Assembly (NCBI RefSeq): GCF_018309085.1
Contig: NZ_CP070502.1
Coordinates: 682,001-746,000 of the forward strand
Reading direction: 5' to 3'
From: Sporosarcina sp. Marseille-Q4063
GTDB taxonomy: Bacteria > Bacillota > Bacilli > Bacillales_A > Planococcaceae
Length of the DNA: 64,000 bases
A program made the position numbers and the translations under genes. Of this stretch, positions 14,351-22,888 are shown piece after piece (positions within the stretch are counted from its first letter, which is position 1; every line of letters starts with the position of its first letter). The notes below the pieces were generated by a model. That model searched no databases. It saw nothing but the letters and a program-made list of their open reading frames with translations, and was not told where the DNA came from.

Positions 14351-14815
14351 TTAATTCTCTTCCGATTTAGTTTGAAGATTTTTCAGTTCATCAATAAATA
14401 CGGTAATATCCTGATAATCACGGTAAACAGATGCAAATCGAACATATGCAACTTCATCAACGTCTGCTAGTCTTTCCAAAACCAACTCGCCCAAATCACC
14501 TGAATTCACTTCCGCAATACCAGAACTTCTCAAATCTTTCTCAATTTCATAAACAATATCTTTTAAATCATCAAGGTTTACAGGACGTTTCACACATGCA
14601 CGAATAAGTCCGCGAAGGATTTTATCGCCGTCGAATTCATCGCGCGACCCATCTTTTTTCACGACAATCAGGGGTGCTTCTTCAATTTTTTCGAACGTTG
14701 TAAAACGAAAAGCGCATGATTCGCATTCCCTTCGTCGCCGAATTGACCTGTTGCTGTCAGCAGGTCGAGAATCAACAACTTTTGATCCATTAAATTGGCA
14801 TGCCGGGCATTTCAT
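14351..14815 (-). CDS. nrdR: Transcriptional repressor NrdR
   Basis: 154 aa, ATP-cone repressor of ribonucleotide reductase genes, sensing ATP/dATP. ATG at 14815 gives the family start MKCPACQ with the zinc ribbon CPAC...CESC at residues 3-6 and about 31-34. GGAGG lies 8 nt upstream; a 25-codon upstream extension in frame has no support. The ATP cone follows ([20 protein letters not shown]). First gene of the nrdR-dnaB-dnaI cluster. Confidence 0.96.
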
Positions 14816-15334
14816 AAGATAATCCTCCACTTTTCCCTTTAATAGTATATTGATTATAACAGAAAAAGTCGATAAACAGAACAAAAGCATGGAAAAGCGT
14901 GGATTGTGGAAGATTTACTGGCAAATGAAAAAGTATTAAAGGCGTACTAGGAACTTTCATTTTACACGCTTCGGCGCTGGTGGATGCTTCCCGCGATAAG
15001 CCTGATAGAAAACCACTATCAGTCTTATCGCTCCAGCTACCACTGGCAAGGCGCCTTCGCTGGTTTGTTTTTGGTAGATTTTTGTCGTTTCGTTTCTTCG
15101 GTAGTGGATTTTATATAAAACTATATACTATCTCGTTTAAATATTGAATAAAGTGGTGAATTTCAAGAAATGAAGTGAAAGCCAACTAGAATGGGCGGTT
15201 TTTAAATGGCAAGGATTTTGAAAGATAAAAAAGCCTAAACCCTCCTTACCTTGAACGGGGAATTAGACTAATGAATTTCAACAATCGTGCAAGAAAGTGA
15301 GAGAGCCAAATACATTCTTGTTTATTTCTCATAA
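14816..15334. other. 519-base gap upstream of nrdR
   Basis: Contains the nrdR ribosome-binding site, a TATAAT box on the minus strand at 14853-14858 with only a weak -35 match, the palindromic repeat described separately (14955-15068), and an AT-rich tail with a short AGCCTAAACCCTCC segment at 15230-15245. No credible ORF was seen. Confidence 0.6.
14955..15068. repeat. Dispersed palindromic repeat, copy 1
   Basis: Structured GC-rich block with self-complementary parts (AAGCCTGATAG with CTATCAGTCTT; GCGCTGGTGG with CCACTGGC). Its reverse complement aligns with 45935-46100: both share AAACCAGCG, CAGTGGTAGC, GATAAGACTGA and the CAGGCTTAT-GCGGGA-GCATCCAC series. Copy 2 has about 60 extra bases in the middle. 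Likely a mobile or regulatory non-coding repeat family. Confidence 0.75.
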
Positions 15335-16072
15335 TTAGTCACTAGGAAACTTACTCGTTATGATGTATTCTCGAACCAGTTGCAACATCTTTTCCTGCAT
15401 TTTTTCATCATTCTTTTCTGTATCGATTAAATAGCCTATGTGATAAATGTGCCCGTCGTAGTATGCATAAAATTCATTAGCGGCAGTTCCTACGGTAGCT
15501 ACACCTTTTTCATTTTCATCATAATACCGGTATAGCAACGCACCATTGGTTGAAAGTACCTGCTGGTAAATAGGCAAATTTTCTGTCAGGTCCTCTTTTT
15601 TTAATTTGTTTCCTACCGTGTCAAATTCATCAGTCTTATCATATAATTCCAGAGGATTTTCATCGGATTCTGTCACTGAAATGATGAAAAAGTGATCAGT
15701 TTGTTCATACTCATCCTTACTAAGATAGCTTAATTGTATCTGGTTCTGTACTTTTCCATCTTTATCTTTCGATGTCACTAGAAAGGCTTTCGCCTCGTCT
15801 ACCTTGAACGGTAACTTGTTTGGATCGAGATTGTTCATAGTATTTTTAACTTGATCTGGCAAAGAAGATTCTGCTTCATTTATTAGAAAAGGCTTGTAGT
15901 ATGCTACATTCTTTCTTTCATCTAAATAATCGTAGGCCTTGAAATACTCGCTATAAGTCAAATCGGTACCTTTAACTTTAACAAGTTTAGATTTATCGAT
16001 TGAACATCCAAACAATATGGAACCAATAAATATCAGTAAAAATAAGAAGCTTGATAATTTTTCAGGTGTCAT
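15335..16072 (-). CDS. Putative lipoprotein, unknown function
   Basis: 245 aa. Signal peptide with lipobox ILFGC ending at Cys about residue 23, so it should be lipid-anchored outside the membrane. The mature part is acidic and lysine-rich, with no domain I recognise. The start ATG has GGAGAG 5 nt upstream. It is the last gene (in transcription direction) of the variable island between gapB and nrdR. Confidence 0.75.
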   Translation of the reverse strand: MTPEKLSSFLFLLIFIGSILFGCSIDKSKLVKVKGTDLTYSEYFKAYDYLDERKNVAYYKPFLINEAESSLPDQVKNTMNNLDPNKLPFKVDEAKAFLVTSKDKDGKVQNQIQLSYLSKDEYEQTDHFFIISVTESDENPLELYDKTDEFDTVGNKLKKEDLTENLPIYQQVLSTNGALLYRYYDENEKGVATVGTAANEFYAYYDGHIYHIGYLIDTEKNDEKMQEKMLQLVREYIITSKFPSD

Positions 16073-16299
16073 TATAACTCTCCTTTATTTGTCCGCTATG
16101 GAGATCATGCATAATTCTTATTATAGAATCGCGCCCGATCGCGGCATAATTCAAAGTAATATCACTGTATACTTTTATTCAAACTCTCAGCTAACCACTT
16201 TGTAAAGACACCCATGAGTTTTGTAACAGAGTCAGGAAGATGCGGGTTTACAACGCCAATTCCATTTTCCTGACGTTACCCTTTTATGCGATTGATATT

Positions 16300-17007
16300 T
16301 TATTCCCATTCATTAGATTTTTGAAATCTTATTCTATCCTTATTTGTTGGAATCCCATTATTTATTTTTTCCCATATGCCATTCTTAAATACTTCGTATT
16401 GTTCAAAAGCAACAGGCAATCCTTTTGCAATAGCTATGTCATTATTATCCATAAGTTGAAAATGCAAATGCGGAGCAAAAGAATTGCCTGAATGACCAAC
16501 TCTACCAATTACATCACCTTTTTTTACATGCTGGCCAACCGAAACCCGAATTGAACCTGTTTGAAGATGGACTAATCCAGCATATACATTATCGGCACAC
16601 TCTATAATGATGTAGTTACCAGCAACTGATTGTATATCGTCTTTTTTCGGGTCGAAATGCTGAGCGTTTTTATAAGCGTTAGACATATCTGACAGCAATT
16701 TTGTTCTTGCTCGTTCTTTATAACCATCCTTTGCTTGGACAATAATCCCATTGCAAGGTGCATATACGTCTTGCCCCCAACAATAATATTCATCTAAAGG
16801 AACTCCAAAAAGTAAATATTGCGCCAAACTAGTACGATAAGCGGGCCAACCCTTTCTTTCCCAATCCACTTGAATAAAGTCATAAGCATATCTTGATCCT
16901 AATTGGTTTGTGCCGTGACTCGGAATTTTTGTCCCTGGCGTGTTAGGAGAGTACCATTCACCTCTCAAAGGAAACTCCACAATTATCGGCTCACGTGCGT
17001 CAATCAT
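16300..17007 (-). CDS. M23 family metallopeptidase-like protein
   Basis: 235 aa. ATG at 17007 chosen because GGAGGG lies just upstream. Carries the LytM/M23 C-terminal signature: GLVHLQ with His147 and HLHF with His180/His182, plus GDVIGRVGHSGNS, and an early Asp43 in RYAYDF. The usual first zinc ligand four residues before this Asp is Arg here; His31 in PSHGT may substitute or the site may be altered. M23 enzymes cut peptidoglycan cross-bridges. No signal peptide is visible with this start, which is odd for a cell-wall hydrolase. It lies in the variable island. Confidence 0.75.
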   Translation of the reverse strand: MIDAREPIIVEFPLRGEWYSPNTPGTKIPSHGTNQLGSRYAYDFIQVDWERKGWPAYRTSLAQYLLFGVPLDEYYCWGQDVYAPCNGIIVQAKDGYKERARTKLLSDMSNAYKNAQHFDPKKDDIQSVAGNYIIIECADNVYAGLVHLQTGSIRVSVGQHVKKGDVIGRVGHSGNSFAPHLHFQLMDNNDIAIAKGLPVAFEQYEVFKNGIWEKINNGIPTNKDRIRFQKSNEWE

Positions 17008-17234
17008 CTCATATCCCTCCTCCGTTGATTCTTTACCTACATTATTGAAAAAGGATGGATTACAAAAGCAGAAAAAAGTCGAGTAGTCCATCTCACATGT
17101 AAAGGCTAAAGAAAAACCCCAATTCACTTTTCAACATCAGAGAAATCGGGATTTATTGTGACACAATATGGCCAGTTTGTTTAATACAGTCTTTTATAAA
17201 AATGAATTACATCATTCCTCTAACTCACAACATT

Positions 17235-17465
17235 TTACATATAAACGGAAAACGATTGCACGACTAAAAAAATACTTACTAGCCCCCAAACTGTAGCCCC
17301 CACTATCCACCAAACAACATGCTTAGCTGAAATCTGTTTACTTTCCATGCTTTCCTTACTTTCTATTATTAAAGCGACTTTCCTTTCCATACCTTTTTTC
17401 ATAGAAACAAGAACAATAAATCCTATTACGATGAAACCAACAGTTACCCAAAGTAACAAACCCAT
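17235..17465 (-). CDS. Small two-span membrane protein
   Basis: 76 aa, two predicted membrane segments (about residues 4-21 and 50-70) separated by a charged, Lys/Glu-rich loop. ATG with GGGGTG 5 nt upstream. No family recognised. One of several tiny membrane proteins of the island, each separated by the repeat core. Confidence 0.6.
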   Translation of the reverse strand: MGLLLWVTVGFIVIGFIVLVSMKKGMERKVALIIESKESMESKQISAKHVVWWIVGATVWGLVSIFLVVQSFSVYM

Positions 17466-17702
17466 TTTTACACCCCATTTTTATGAATTACTTTCCTAGC
17501 TGGCCGACGATATTGTCAAAGTAAAATCTGAAGCAATTATTAATACTTCTGGATAAACCTCCAATTTAGAAGTTCCGTTATCGCCGCTACCTACAAAAAA
17601 ATAATATTCTGCTAAATGGCCTGTTTGCTAGATATGGACACAATTGCTTATTAAGCAATCGCGCCCGATTGCAGAAGTTCGTTGCAAATACCGAAGGATT
17701 GT

Positions 17703-17951
17703 TTACGTTCCTTTTTTTACTGGGTTACGAGACTTCTTGTAAAAAAGCACAGCTAACAACAAAAGAATCAGAGGCATGTACCCAATGTAAGATACAAACG
17801 GCTCTCCACTCAAAGCATATAAAGAAAAGGGTAAAACTGTGAAGAAACATAATACCATAGCAACCCAAGAACGTTTAAAGATTCCATACAAGAAAATGAT
17901 AGGCGATATAATCGCAGAGATCCAAAATAATACTGCATACAATACAGCCAT
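17703..17951 (-). CDS. Small hydrophobic membrane protein
   Basis: 82 aa with start ATG at 17951 behind GGGAGGGG. Three hydrophobic stretches (about 2-20, 24-45, 51-72) and a basic tail KKSRNPVKKGT. A longer upstream reading would run into the repeat region and has no ribosome-binding site. Function unknown. Confidence 0.65.
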   Translation of the reverse strand: MAVLYAVLFWISAIISPIIFLYGIFKRSWVAMVLCFFTVLPFSLYALSGEPFVSYIGYMPLILLLLAVLFYKKSRNPVKKGT

Positions 17952-18010
17952 TTTAACCCCTCCCGTTTCATTGTTTCCCAAAATGAATGCACAAGTCCTT
18001 CGCAATATGG

Positions 18011-18453
18011 CCCGATTGCGATACAGACACAATCGTTTATAAAGCAATCGTGCCCATTAATTTAATAAAGTAAATTAAATTTCGCGAATACGATAAGAGC
18101 TGCCAATAAAATAAAAGTCTCGGTTAAAGTCAAAATAAACTGTTTTAGATACTTAGAATACTTCCACTCAAAAAACGCCCTAATTAGCATACGTATGAAT
18201 GTGAAAACCAGGACAGTAACAATGAACAGGTTATAAGATTCAGGAAAATATACAAGGTCCACTACAAGGGAGAATCCTCACTTACTTTCTCAATGTTGAA
18301 AATCCTTCGCACAAGGGATTTTGCTGTAGACATCTAAATAAAAATTACCACAAAAATTAAAGCGACCCTTAAAAAAACCAAATCATAGCATATCCCCTTC
18401 TTGCATTCTATCCCGATTCAGGCACTGTGCTTCTTCAACAACTGCGCCCGATT
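18011..18453 (-). repeat. Duplicated unit A (degenerate copy)
   Basis: Shares near-identity with 19913-20438, beginning at CCGATTGCG and ending exactly after GCGCCCGATT. Compared with the other copy it lacks about 82 bases (equivalent of 20171-20252) inside the gene. Confidence 0.85.
18062..18386 (-). pseudogene. Broken copy of the DUF4181-like membrane protein gene
   Basis: Corresponds to the intact gene at 19964-20371. The C-terminal 65 residues are almost identical, but an 82-bp internal deletion shifts the frame, and the start region (ATG at 18386) reaches a TAA after five codons because of small indels. A 66-codon 3' fragment remains open but lacks the N-terminal membrane segment and a proper start. 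Confidence 0.85.
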
Positions 18454-18482
18454 ATTGGGAGAACATTACCCTTTCTCAGCCA

Positions 18483-18773
18483 CTAATGCTGAATGTCTTC
18501 TAAAACCCGAAGATTATCTCCTTTTTTTGAATACAAGGCGAAATACTCTTTATCTTCCTCGATAAGGTTCCAAACCATCTTTTCTTGTATCATTATCTTA
18601 AATGCTTCTTCTTTGTTTTGATTGTACGGGTCATATGCCTTAATCCAATATTCTTTGTTGTTGCTTGACTGACCTTTTTCAATCACCATCAACGTTGAGG
18701 CAGTTGATACTCCCCCACAAGAAGCAAGTATTAATGTGAAAAGGATAATGAATAACCCAAAAGTTTTTTTCAT
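18483..18773 (-). CDS. Small putative lipoprotein
   Basis: 96 aa with ATG at 18773, GGGAGG 7 nt upstream. Signal peptide MKKTFGLF... with lipobox LASCGG (Cys about residue 19). Mature part is charged, with no recognised family. It occupies the position between units A and B; in the second A-B pair a different gene is found there. Confidence 0.7.
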   Translation of the reverse strand: MKKTFGLFIILFTLILASCGGVSTASTLMVIEKGQSSNNKEYWIKAYDPYNQNKEEAFKIMIQEKMVWNLIEEDKEYFALYSKKGDNLRVLEDIQH

Positions 18774-18820
18774 AAATCTTCCTCCCACGATTAAATAATG
18801 CTTTTTTAGTCTCAACAATC

Positions 18821-19204
18821 TGGCCCGATTCTGGCACGAATTTTATTCAGCTAAAGCCCTAATTGAGGAAATCTATTATTGGATAATTCCTTGCCTAAAA
18901 TCCACATAAACTTTACAAATACCAATGCTCATTTGTTTTTGTCCTTGTACATTTTATAAACCCTTCCAATTATCGGCAGAATTATTAGGAAAGGAAAAAG
19001 AATATTAAACCATAGGGGTTTATCAAAAGAACTAACACTATAAATAATTACAACGAATGCAATCCCAAGAATAATGTCAGCTATTAAATTATGTTTTTCA
19101 GATTTAAACATTGAAACCACTTCTGTATCCTTTGTTTCCATCACTCATAGTGTCTAAACTCCTATTAAACCTCCGAAGGGTTATTCAATTAAATGGCCCG
19201 ATTG
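18821..19204 (-). repeat. Duplicated unit B, copy 1
   Basis: About 384 bp nearly identical to 21036-21420 (a handful of substitutions and a 1-nt indel). Identity starts at TGGCCCGATT and stops just after the next TGGCCCGATT, so the duplicated unit is one gene plus one repeat core. Confidence 0.88.
18929..19144 (-). CDS. Small membrane protein, unit B copy 1
   Basis: Up to 71 aa, with two hydrophobic segments (about 22-38 and 42-62 of the longest form) and a basic end YKMYKDKNK. Start uncertain: GTG at 19144 has no well-placed ribosome-binding site. A 14-codon ORF starting at an ATG with AGGAG 10 nt upstream overlaps an internal ATG (MFKSEK, 61 aa), so coupled translation is possible. Paralogue at 21145-21360 differs at only a few residues. 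Unknown function. Confidence 0.6.
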   Translation of the reverse strand: MMETKDTEVVSMFKSEKHNLIADIILGIAFVVIIYSVSSFDKPLWFNILFPFLIILPIIGRVYKMYKDKNK

Positions 19205-19247
19205 CAGAATGGGCGAAGATCCATCTTCAAGAATTGCGCCCGTTTGC

Positions 19248-19616
19248 TTAAATTACATTAAAAAAATCTGTTACCCTATAAATCACCAATCCTAAAATGA
19301 ATAAGACACAAGTTATAGCACTTAGGAGATATGTTTTACTTTCTCTTGTGAAAATCGATTTCATTATGGTACGAAAAGCAAACACAGCAGCCATACTTAC
19401 AAAAATCAATATTCTAAGGCGTGGAAATTCATTTATTGCTATAATCATCACAATAAAACTAGCCCAGTAGAGTATTCTTTCACCATATTTATGTAGTTTG
19501 TTTACGTATTTTACATCTAATTCAGATTCCTCTATATTCAATTTTGTTATTAGCTTTCGATTGATAAATTGATCTAAAATTAGAATGGCAATTAGAATAG
19601 TAATAATGGCTATCAT
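19248..19616 (-). CDS. DUF4181-like membrane protein
   Basis: 122 aa; ATG at 19616 chosen for GGGGG 6 nt upstream. Four hydrophobic segments. The block KYVNKLHKYGERI followed later by FAFRTIMKSIFTRESKTYLLS resembles the DUF4181 pattern I know from Bacillus; the protein from 19964-20371 has a similar NYVKQLH and FIRMLIRAFFEWKYSK. The two are thus distant paralogues in the same island. Function unknown. Confidence 0.65.
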   Translation of the reverse strand: MIAIITILIAILILDQFINRKLITKLNIEESELDVKYVNKLHKYGERILYWASFIVMIIAINEFPRLRILIFVSMAAVFAFRTIMKSIFTRESKTYLLSAITCVLFILGLVIYRVTDFFNVI

Positions 19617-19695
19617 TTTAATCCCCCTATTAGACATCATCCTACTTCATTGGCATTAATGGCGATCTTATTGTTCCAGAATAGCGCCAGATTGA

Positions 19696-19875
19696 TTAAT
19701 AATTTTTGCTATTTGTTAAAGCCAAAAAGTATATGTTAACTCCTGTTAATCCACCACCAATAATCGCCATTAATGTTCCGATTATTACCCAAGCCGTAGT
19801 CAAAAGAGTAGACAAATATATACCAGCCATAAGCAATGCTAAACCAACGAACAATAACACAATGTTTGTTTTCAT
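19696..19875 (-). CDS. Small two-span membrane protein
   Basis: 59 aa with ATG at 19875 behind AGAGGTGGAGG. Two hydrophobic segments (about 4-20 and 26-50) with a glycine-rich IIGGGLTG. No family recognised. Flanked on both sides by repeat cores. Confidence 0.6.
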   Translation of the reverse strand: MKTNIVLLFVGLALLMAGIYLSTLLTTAWVIIGTLMAIIGGGLTGVNIYFLALTNSKNY

Positions 19876-19912
19876 ACCTCCACCTCTTATGCCTTCCTTT
19901 TCCGTTAAATGT

Positions 19913-20438
19913 ACCGATTGCGATACAGACACAATCGCTAATATAGCAATCGCGCCCATTAGTTTAATAAAGTAAATTAAATTTCGCGACTACGATAACA
20001 GCTGCCAATAAAATAACAATCTCGGTTAAAGTTAAAAAAAACTGTTTTGGATACTTAGAATACTTCCACTCAAAAAACGCCCTAATTAGCATACGTATGA
20101 ATGTGAAAACCAGGACAGTAACAATGAACAGGTTATAAGATTCAGGAAAATATACAAGGTCTACTACAAGAACAACAAATAAGATAACCAAAGAATAGTT
20201 TATAAATGGTTTATCTACTTCCTGATGTAATTGTTTTACATAATTGCGAGAGGGAGAATCCTCACTTACTTTCTCAATATTAAAAATCCTTCGTGCAAGG
20301 GATTTTGCTGTAGACATCAAAATAAAAATAACCACAAAAATTAAAGCGATCCTTAGAAAAAACCAAATCATAGCATATCCCCTCCTTACATTCTAGCCCG
20401 ATTCAGGCACAGCGCTTCTTCAACAACTGCGCCCGATT
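19913..20438 (-). repeat. Duplicated unit A, intact copy
   Basis: Matches 18011-18453; the homology begins inside one repeat core (CCGATTGCG) and ends with the next core GCGCCCGATT. Holds the complete membrane-protein gene 19964-20371. Confidence 0.85.
19964..20371 (-). CDS. DUF4181-like membrane protein, intact unit A gene
   Basis: 135 aa with four hydrophobic segments; NYVKQLHQEVDKPF in the first cytosolic loop and RMLIRAFFEWKYSKYPKQF before the last segment suggest the DUF4181 group. ATG with GGGGATATGC upstream. A broken paralogue lies at 18062-18386. Function unknown; other DUF4181 proteins occur in multi-copy clusters in Bacilli. Confidence 0.7.
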   Translation of the reverse strand: MIWFFLRIALIFVVIFILMSTAKSLARRIFNIEKVSEDSPSRNYVKQLHQEVDKPFINYSLVILFVVLVVDLVYFPESYNLFIVTVLVFTFIRMLIRAFFEWKYSKYPKQFFLTLTEIVILLAAVIVVAKFNLLY

Positions 20439-20541
20439 CTGGCATAACGTTGTACGAAAATTGCGGCGGCTTAATGAATCCAATCGTAAGTTTGGATGTA
20501 GCTGAAAAGTCAGGTCAAGCCTTCTTGGATAAAGAATATTT

Positions 20542-20859
20542 TTATTTTATCCTATTTTTTTTAAATCGATCTCCCAAATTAGAATACAGTAAGCTAAATA
20601 TAATAACAGCTACAAATAATATCAAACCAATAATGAATAATACATTGTTTTGTAGTATGTCGCTTAATAACCAAAATACCATACTTGCTGATAAAGCCAG
20701 AATGGTTTTTCCGTAGAATTTACCCAACGCTAGTTTATCGTATTTTGCTTTTTCCCCTCTAGGCAGCGTGTTAAATCCTGCAATAAGAAATGTTCCTTTT
20801 CCACTCAACAGAAATACACCGAAAACAGTAAATGAAAAAATACCAACACTTAATAACAT
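20542..20859 (-). CDS. DUF3784-like small membrane protein
   Basis: 104 aa; ATG at 20859 with GGAGGTG 6 nt upstream. N-terminal hydrophobic segment, then GKGTFLIAGFNTLPRGEKAKYDKLALGKFYGK, which fits the DUF3784 pattern (xIAGYNT-x-xxEKxKYD), then two further membrane segments and a basic end. Unknown function; found among small membrane proteins in Firmicutes. It sits between intact A and second B copy, where the first A-B pair has a lipoprotein gene. Confidence 0.7.
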   Translation of the reverse strand: MLLSVGIFSFTVFGVFLLSGKGTFLIAGFNTLPRGEKAKYDKLALGKFYGKTILALSASMVFWLLSDILQNNVLFIIGLILFVAVIIFSLLYSNLGDRFKKNRIK

Positions 20860-21035
20860 GGTAACACCTCCATAAAGTAGAGTGCTTAATAACACATACG
20901 AATGAATGTTAATAAAAGTTCAGGGTTGAAAGTAATATAAATAGCAATAGGTAAATCAACATGATTTATTGCTTTTAATACCATTTCTTGTTCATTGTAT
21001 TTAGCTGGTTTCGTTCAATAAGGTTTCTCTATAAA

Positions 21036-21420
21036 ATGGCCCGATTCTGGCACGAATTTTATTCAGCTAAAGCCCTGATTGAGGAAATCTATTATTGGAT
21101 AATTCCTTGTCTAAAATCCACATAAACTCTACAAATACCAATGCTCATTTGTTTTTGTCCTTGTACATTTTATAAACCCTTCCAATTATCGGCAGAATTA
21201 TTAGTAAAGGAAAAAGAATATTAAACCATAGGGGTTTATCAAAAGAACTAACACGATAAATAATTACAATGAATGCAATCCCAAGAATAATGTCAGCTAT
21301 TAAATTATGTTTTTCAGATTTAAACATTGAAACCACTTCTGTATCCTTTGTTTCTATCACTCATAGTGTCTACACTCCTATTAAACCTCTGAAGGGTTAT
21401 TCAATTAAATGGCCCGATTG
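21036..21420 (-). repeat. Duplicated unit B, copy 2
   Basis: Second copy of the 18821-19204 unit, bounded at both ends by TGGCCCGATT. Confidence 0.88.
21145..21360 (-). CDS. Small membrane protein, unit B copy 2
   Basis: 71 aa from a GTG start or 61 aa from the internal ATG; the ATG that follows the GTG in copy 1 is ATA here. The same 14-codon upstream ORF with an AGGAG site overlaps the internal start. Two membrane segments and basic C-terminus as in copy 1. The proteins differ at only four or so positions, so the duplication is recent. Confidence 0.6.
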   Translation of the reverse strand: MIETKDTEVVSMFKSEKHNLIADIILGIAFIVIIYRVSSFDKPLWFNILFPLLIILPIIGRVYKMYKDKNK

Positions 21421-21535
21421 TCTTATACTATAATGCGGCTTGATTGCCTGAAGAAATTCTATTCAATAATCTTTTCCCGATAGTTATGTGGCATAGCGTT
21501 GTACGACAATTACGCCCTATTCTAGCCGACTGTTG

Positions 21536-21718: not shown

Positions 21719-21746
21719 TATACGGATAACAAATCAAAACGTTTCA
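21719..21746 (-). promoter_or_regulatory. Sigma-W-type promoter at the upstream side of the island
   Basis: TGAAAC (21741-21746), 16-nt spacer, CGTATA (21719-21724) on the minus strand: exact sigma-W consensus with the same spacing as before ysdB and sppA. It points into the small-membrane-protein array and has no intact gene immediately downstream other than those of the array. Confidence 0.72.
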
Positions 21747-21807
21747 CTATCTGTCCTGGTTGTTGAATACATCCGTTGTCAAAGGATTTACTCTTAATTC
21801 ATGTAAA

Positions 21808-21865: not shown

Positions 21866-22888
21866 TTATGCACTTAATTTCAAACTTAAAGCATAGCCAA
21901 CTCTCTTCGCCAAATCAACAACGCGTGCAGAATAGCCCCACTCATTGTCATACCAAGCAAGCACCTTAACTTTTCTAGTCCCCATGACAATCGTCGAAAG
22001 CCCATCAACAATTGCAGACTCCGTAGTTGTATTCAAATCTACAGAAACCACAGGATCTGTTGTATAAGCAAGAATCCCTGACATGTTTGATTTTGCCGCC
22101 TTTTTGAATGCATCATTCACCATTTCCACCGTCACATCTTGTTTAAGATCAACAACAAGGTCAACAAGTGAAACGTTCGGCGTCGGTATGCGCAGTGCCA
22201 TACCATGAATTTTACCTTCCAATTCCGGCAAGACCAATGACAGCGCTTTCGCAGCACCTGTCGAAGTCGGAATGATGGACTGCGCACATGCGCGTGCTCG
22301 ACGTAAGTCTTTATGCGGATTATCTAAATTATTTTGATCTGTCGTAAATGCATGAACAGTCGTCATCAAGCCGTTCTCAATTCCAAAAGCATCATTCAGC
22401 ACTTTTGCAACTGGCGCAAGACAGTTCGTCGTACAACTAGCATTCGAAATAACCTCATGTTTATCAATATCAAGTTTTTCATCATTCACGCCAAGGACAA
22501 TCGTGATATCTTCATTTTTACCCGGTGCTGTCAAAATTACCTTTTTAGCACCAGCTTTCAAATGAAGGGCCGCCTTGTCACGCTCGTTAAATTTACCTGT
22601 CGCTTCTATAACGATATCGACACCTAGCTCTTTCCAAGGAAGTTTGACTGGATCTCTTTCCGATACAAGCTTCACTCGTTTACCATTTACAACAAGCGCA
22701 TCTTTTTCGGCAATGATTTCACCATTAAACGTTCCGTGATTTGTGTCATACTTAATCAAATGAGCGAGTGTTTCCGATGGATATGACGCATTTACCGCAA
22801 CAATCCTTACATCATCCTCCAAAATCATCTGACGGAAAACCATTCGTCCAATTCTTCCGAACCCGTTAATCGCAATAGAAGTAGTCAT
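21866..22888 (-). CDS. gapB: Glyceraldehyde-3-phosphate dehydrogenase, gluconeogenic GapB type
   Basis: 340 aa. NAD(P)-binding GFGRIGR at 8-14 and catalytic Cys in SNASCTTNC at about 148-156. After the second strand the sequence is NASYPSETLAHL rather than the NDLTD type of glycolytic NAD-dependent GapA, a pattern shared with NADP-preferring B. subtilis GapB, which works in gluconeogenesis. The promoter carries two CcpN-type boxes, which fits repression on glucose. Lies downstream of coaE with its own promoter and terminator. Confidence 0.92.
   Translation of the reverse strand: MTTSIAINGFGRIGRMVFRQMILEDDVRIVAVNASYPSETLAHLIKYDTNHGTFNGEIIAEKDALVVNGKRVKLVSERDPVKLPWKELGVDIVIEATGKFNERDKAALHLKAGAKKVILTAPGKNEDITIVLGVNDEKLDIDKHEVISNASCTTNCLAPVAKVLNDAFGIENGLMTTVHAFTTDQNNLDNPHKDLRRARACAQSIIPTSTGAAKALSLVLPELEGKIHGMALRIPTPNVSLVDLVVDLKQDVTVEMVNDAFKKAAKSNMSGILAYTTDPVVSVDLNTTTESAIVDGLSTIVMGTRKVKVLAWYDNEWGYSARVVDLAKRVGYALSLKLSA

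Follow-up and report, generated by a model that had tools for sequence, protein, structure and literature searches.

Integrons, together with clusters of attC sites lacking integron integrases (CALIN), and the dif modules (pdif) of Acinetobacter are the described systems closest to the array considered here. An attC site has one inverted pair of core boxes, and the two arms of a dif site differ from each other. The integron features used for comparison are those given in PMC8618304, and the dif length of 28 bp is that given in PMC6449649. Integrons are very rare in Firmicutes according to the IntegronFinder 2.0 paper (PMC9024848), which gives one complete integron (Limnochorda pilosa) and a few CALIN. 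The locus compared with these systems is the interval between gapB and nrdR in Sporosarcina sp. Marseille-Q4063, within a window of 64,000 nucleotides (positions 682,001 to 746,000 of contig NZ_CP070502.1). Sequence comparisons suggest, with a probability of about 0.83, that this island is a cassette array without an integrase, belonging to an integron-like system of Bacilli that is not IntI/attC.

The sites that separate the island genes are of two types, LH and RH, with the cores AAWCGGGYGC and CAATCGGGCCA, respectively, on the gene strand. An earlier note on this DNA had taken a 10-bp core as the repeated unit; logos of 225 LH and 166 RH sites place each core in the middle of a 30-bp inverted repeat with 12-bp arms and a 6-bp spacer. 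The LH site reads TATTCAACAATC-GGGYGC-GATTGTTGAATA, and the RH spacer is GGGCCA. The two logos are mirror-symmetric with arms that are alike, and the spacers of the two site types share the same, direct orientation. The arms would also match the RYYYAAC/GTTRRRY boxes of integrons. LH and RH sites are often paired 33–45 bp apart with a hairpin between them, and the RH site itself lacks a hairpin. A clear RH partner was found for 143 of 247 LH matches, nearly always at a distance of 34–35 or 40–45 bp. Across the genome, YGGCCCGATT occurs 25 times, compared with 7 for the backwards control. A hairpin model built from the alignment of nine island LH sites (R1) gave 18 genome hits at E ≤ 1, namely the nine in the island, four in a second array (624–629 kb) and five standing alone. 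This second array, at 618–634 kb (L047), is of the same kind and has one cassette in common with G248 (Sporosarcina ureilytica).

Sites are tightly clustered in the island. With the 30-bp site matrix, for which the same 225 LH and 166 RH sites served as training set and the window's own sites were a small part, 19 sites score at least 15 between 16134 and 21754, and the remaining 57.4 kb of the window has none at that score. The gapB–nrdR interval contains 11 intact genes and one broken DUF4181-like gene (18062–18382), all on the minus strand. The earlier count of eight small genes and a broken one was thus too low, with 10 of the intact genes lying within 16100–21520. Repeat copies had been reported in nearly every gap, and a site scoring at least 15 is indeed present in 12 of the 13 intergenic gaps; the nrdR-side gap has only a weak site (15290, score 12.5). 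The statement that no repeat lies inside a gene is correct for the spacers, none of which is within an island gene, and incorrect for whole sites, since four of the 19 overlap a gene 3' end.

Homology among arrays frequently ends at these sites. Homology blocks were taken from an all-against-all comparison of 61 stretches, and the test of their ends was limited to blocks of 150–2500 bp with at least 85% identity (duplicates merged) and to ends lying no more than 1500 bp from a site and no less than 60 bp from the end of a stretch. The 182 such ends came from 71 locus pairs, and for 54 of them both copies have a site centre no more than 8 bp away, whereas chance expectations are 0.28 for independent shifts and 1.06 for equal shifts (maximum 6 in 200 shuffles). 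The proportion is 24 of 52 for blocks of at least 93% identity; with a first list of cores, 14 of 156 ends were exact in both copies. Homology stops inside the inverted-repeat site, not at the hairpin, and about 10 bp are shared at junctions. Within the island, two pairs of units are core-to-core duplicates; units 18821–19204 and 21037–21420 are identical at 375 of 384 positions and diverge just beyond the cores. Near-identical single cassettes also occur in different species. A cassette of the second array matches one in G248 over 858 bp at 97.9% identity (gapB, 75.8%), and DNA identity of cassettes versus gapB is 91.5 versus 73.8% for G012–G244, 93.7 versus 73.0% for G017–G019, 89.3 versus 71.6% for G012–G006, and 86.2 versus 73.5% for G019–G008. 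The idea that gain, loss or exchange of genes takes place in repeat-bounded units is therefore supported by the 54 of 182 ends at sites and the two duplicated unit pairs.

In other genomes, some arrays lie beside a family of Xer-like tyrosine recombinases of 283–293 amino acids. These integrases retain the R, K, H, R, H and Y columns, which presumably are catalytic, and their best solved relatives are a XerC-like protein (4a8e) and XerD (1a0p). They are about 30% identical to XerC and XerD of the genus and fall below the XerC and XerD model cut-offs. Identity with IntI was rejected, as three proteins score 108.5, 95.0 and 105.9 on TIGR02249 (cut-off 265), on which the XerC (118.5) and XerD (152.7) of the Marseille-Q4063 genome both exceed the 108.5 of the integrase. 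On NF040815 the scores are 218.2, 204.2 and 228.1 against a cut-off of 220, and only a relative in G002 (39% identity to the array-linked integrase) passes; the title of this model mentions integron integrase, yet it is broad, and XerC and XerD of the Marseille-Q4063 genome pass as well. The earlier finding that the island has no integrase was borne out by a genome search, in which the array-linked family was absent from the whole genome. Its PF00589 proteins are XerC, XerD, two integrases resembling those of integrative and conjugative elements (ICE), and one fragment. Among 12 array-rich relatives, G003, G017 and G248 carry an intact member of the family, the G244 copy contains a stop, and those of G009 and G012 are broken. 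Several copies in the order-wide table are likewise partial or contain stops, as if the gene were often gained and lost.

The integrase genes and the sites are linked. A site is present within 1.5 kb (E ≤ 0.05) of 18 of 30 integrase loci (28 of clade A and two of clade B, with L161, L162 and L164 excluded as repeats of others), versus none of 32 other recombinase loci, which include those of XerC and XerD. For integrase loci of named genomes, 16 of 19 have a site at E ≤ 0.01 (L243, at 27% identity, was excluded); four loci on viral contigs had no site match. At the genome level, sites accompany a clade A integrase in 27 of 28 genomes, versus 134 of the 233 others with sites. The clade A integrase reads in the same direction as the array sites in most loci seen. 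With regard to a possible counterpart of the integron attI, which adjoins the integrase gene, 17 of 52 loci, of which two are one and the same place, have an LH site 144–208 bp ahead of the integrase start, and the half-site GATTGTTGAATAA (at most one mismatch) occurs upstream in 11 of the 28 loci that we selected from these 52 for the scan. Tandem runs of several tyrosine recombinase genes were seen in G018 (contig 19), G006 (contig 55) and G019 (contigs 23 and 34).

A second integrase clade has different site arms. In 14 clade B loci (60–63% identity), 86 sites score at least 12, and 83 of them are oriented opposite to the integrase. A second hairpin model (R2), built from 89 matches, matches seven of the 14 loci. 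The clade B logo was drawn from 45 sites selected by the pattern AACGGG[TCG]GC and has T at −4 (0.91) and A at +9 (0.96), where A-type LH sites have A (0.72) and T (0.87), respectively. The arms thus change together at mirror positions, and these positions are outside the selecting pattern. Clade B-like integrases are also carried by plasmids of Sporosarcina psychrophila and Peribacillus simplex (L248 and L249), and relatives at 54–57% identity are found on IMG/VR contigs.

Arrays are numerous in Sporosarcina and other Bacilli, and some lie beside their own integrase. With one genome sampled per species, R2 matches 40 of 41 genomes of the genus (E ≤ 0.05), 161 of 261 genomes of the order, and 44 of 398 genomes of the class in 28 of 145 genera (E ≤ 0.001). 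Integrase family matches occur in 87 of the 261 genomes of the order (E ≤ 1e-50) and 32 of the 398 of the class (E ≤ 1e-60). Sites are present in only two of 22 gapB–nrdR loci (gapB found in 21), those of the window and of the sister genome G012, and no common cassette appeared in the comparison of these two. In G003 (Sporosarcina jiandibaonis) the gapB–nrdR gap is 471 bp, and the intergenic flanks are too diverged to place the insertion point.

A cassette of these arrays is typically a single gene of about 0.3–1 kb that reads in the direction of the sites, and many junctions have two simple sites, LH and RH, with a short hairpin between them. Under the proposed mechanism, the Xer-like tyrosine recombinase probably binds to the arms, with strand exchange taking place in the spacer, such that cassettes would leave or enter between like spacers, perhaps through a circular intermediate. 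The array in Marseille-Q4063 may have been built by an integrase that has since been lost or that acts in trans. More broadly, we lean towards the view that Bacilli have their own integron equivalent, in which an Xer-like integrase family, divided into two or more clades that each have a site type of their own, would move single-gene cassettes between species via paired palindromic sites and a hairpin. Such a system would have arisen apart from IntI/attC and would be common in Sporosarcina and its family.

Several observations weigh against an integrase-driven cassette array. In one or both copies, 128 of the 182 homology ends are away from sites, and of five candidates from a scan for clean insertions, one is bounded by sites. 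Nine core-bounded blocks shared across genomes could be compared with gapB; in four, all from pairs of near relatives, identity is lower than that of gapB, and therefore not all are recent transfers. Apart from the absence of the integrase family from the Marseille-Q4063 genome, the 87 genomes with an integrase match include eight that lack sites, and another 82 genomes have sites but no match to the integrase. These counts ignore ancestry, and related genomes are not independent. In addition, the number of hairpin pairs changed on both sides in the first nine sites is not significant (78 of 500 shuffles).

One alternative is that the sites are terminator-like or RNA-processing repeats, and that genes have been shuffled by homologous or illegitimate recombination between them. 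The hairpin indeed co-varies as an RNA element would, as 13 of 15 base pairs are changed on both sides in the R2 set versus 7.3 in shuffles (in an alignment fitted to the model), and sliding the hairpin partner on this set lowers the score. G-U pairs make up about 30% of the paired cells of this alignment (295 of about 991). Moreover, the sense strand folds at lower energy than the other strand in seven of the nine island hairpins (sense z-scores from −5.5 to 0.0), and a T run follows some copies. The hairpin may also act in RNA; a search of the window at 14–23 kb gave no Rfam match up to E = 1. However, the shared 10 bp at junctions are presumably short for homologous recombination, the ends of homology are inside the inverted repeat and not at the hairpin, and RH sites themselves have none. 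Such recombination is disfavoured because a related integrase family, which it leaves unexplained, adjoins arrays in other genomes, and we regard it as improbable. It is also hardly credible that the sites are small non-autonomous mobile repeats that inserted beside genes which do not themselves move. The five solitary sites among the 18 R1 hits would fit this idea, but whole gene-bearing units are duplicated core to core and are common to different species.

Alternatively, the host XerC and XerD could act on dif-like sites, as in the dif modules of Acinetobacter. The layout of two arms around a 6-bp spacer is common to these sites and dif, XerC, XerD and the two ICE-like integrases are the full-length tyrosine recombinases of the Marseille-Q4063 genome, and the 82 genomes with sites and no integrase match are in line with such an arrangement. 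This explanation is nevertheless very unlikely, given that none of the XerC and XerD loci in the control set of 32 has a nearby site and that the sites are linked to a different integrase family. Identity with a dif-module site was likewise rejected, since the present site is 30 bp with like arms and dif is 28 bp with differing ones. A true integron remnant, that is, a CALIN with attC sites and an IntI integrase, would have the same layout of single-gene cassettes in one orientation and of arrays with and without an integrase. Its probability is extremely low, because the integrase is under the integron integrase cut-off (108.5 versus 265) and under the genome's own Xer proteins, and the LH and RH spacers are direct whereas attC core sites are inverted. 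A scan of complementarity bearing on folded-strand versus double-strand recombination was mixed, with z of 3.9 for LH arm 2/RH arm 1, 3.0 between the LH arms, 1.6 between the RH arms and 1.3 for LH arm 1/RH arm 2 (some sites being counted on both strands).

The contents of the arrays agree with a cassette system. The 375 intervals between sites have a median length of 482 bp, and their longest open reading frame (ORF) is sense in 322, antisense in 36 and lacking in 17. A single sense ORF of at least 60 amino acids is present in 266 of 358 intervals, so that the arrays share tandem single-ORF cassettes with integrons. The earlier prediction that all island products but one are at the membrane or outside it does not extend to cassettes as a general rule, which are not all membrane proteins, as 192 of the 322 have a hydrophobic segment. 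Among 112 proteins that we selected from cassette positions, 60 Pfam families were matched overall, with PF00583 acetyltransferases in seven.

In the island, nine genes were scanned with Pfam, and two DUF4181, one DUF3784 and one M23 peptidase gene scored above cut-off. The flanking core genes gapB (an ORF at 21866–22888) and nrdR (14351–14824) carry names from the earlier note and are on the minus strand, as are the features between them unless stated. At the gapB end are a weak RH-like site (21739–21769, score 15.1) and an LH site whose folded hairpin is weak (21499–21529, score 17.4). RH sites placed by alignment and matrix at 21397–21427 and 21025–21055 bound a duplicated unit with a 71-amino-acid cassette gene (ORF 21145–21360; no Pfam match at E ≤ 1), a copy of the gene at 18929–19144. 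These are followed by a DUF3784 membrane protein gene (20542–20862, PF12650), a paired LH-hairpin-RH site (20381–20447, by fold, logo and matrix) and a DUF4181 membrane protein gene (19964–20371, PF13789). Further paired sites supported by fold and matrix lie at 19897–19969, 19181–19253, 17995–18067 and 17605–17679, the last with the strongest hairpin (z −5.48). Between the first two are the ORF of a small membrane protein (19696–19959; start uncertain, 87 amino acids or shorter), an LH site found by matrix (19671–19701) and the second DUF4181 gene (19248–19640, PF13789). The other 71-amino-acid gene (18929–19144), placed by alignment and matrix within the duplicated unit 18821–19204, is followed by a matrix-defined RH site (18809–18839), a lipoprotein-like gene (18483–18773; lipobox by eye, LPAM_1 below cut-off) and a paired site by matrix with a weak RH partner (18397–18461; 13.7). 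Alignment and repeat families D2, D3 and D5 identify the broken gene at 18062–18382 as a copy of the DUF4181 unit at 19964–20371. Genes for membrane proteins of 83 amino acids (17703–17954; no Pfam match at E ≤ 1) and 76 amino acids (17235–17465; no Pfam match over cut-off) come next, and then an RH-type site to which no strand is assigned, as the matrix scores both (17157–17187; 27.3 on plus and 23.6 on minus). An M23 peptidase gene (16300–17007, PF01551), an LH site with hairpin (16119–16149, by fold and matrix) and the last gene of the array, an ORF for a 245-amino-acid lipoprotein-like protein (15335–16072, lipobox by eye), complete the island. Comparison of the island gave short matches to plasmids (22 records) and none to phages. 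The 58 bp at 16231–16288 resemble part of small Bacillus plasmids (about 86% identity), 16200–16300 used as a query gave matches in 104 plasmid records (chiefly from Enterococcus, Bacillus and Listeria), and the 65 bp at 17042–17106 are 92% identical to a Brevibacillus laterosporus plasmid.

If the proposed reading is true, a separate cassette system with its own integrase, widespread in Bacilli, would account for the gain and swapping of small accessory genes in these bacteria, give access to many cassette genes that are so far uncharted, and provide a second case for studying the origin of cassette systems. No description of such a system turned up in the literature covered, which was without preprints and most subscription papers. 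Like integrons and CALIN, these arrays consist of single-gene cassettes lined up in tandem and in the same direction, with a hairpin element at the junctions; cassettes are common to different species, and a tyrosine recombinase gene adjoins some arrays and is lacking from many. They differ in that the array-linked integrase is outside the IntI model, the junction combines two simple, palindromic sites whose GGG spacers run in the same direction, and the clade A integrase is mostly co-directional with the array sites. As in the dif modules of Acinetobacter, genes are flanked by short two-arm sites with a 6-bp spacer and the host range is one lineage, whereas the arms here are alike, the sites are 30 bp and paired with a hairpin, and there is a dedicated integrase family. 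Finally, this family belongs to the fold family of XerA, XerC and XerD, its best solved relatives being 4a8e and 1a0p, and comes close to the NF040815 cut-off (218.2 versus 220), but it misses the XerC and XerD cut-offs, is only about 30% identical to these proteins, and is linked to cassette sites.

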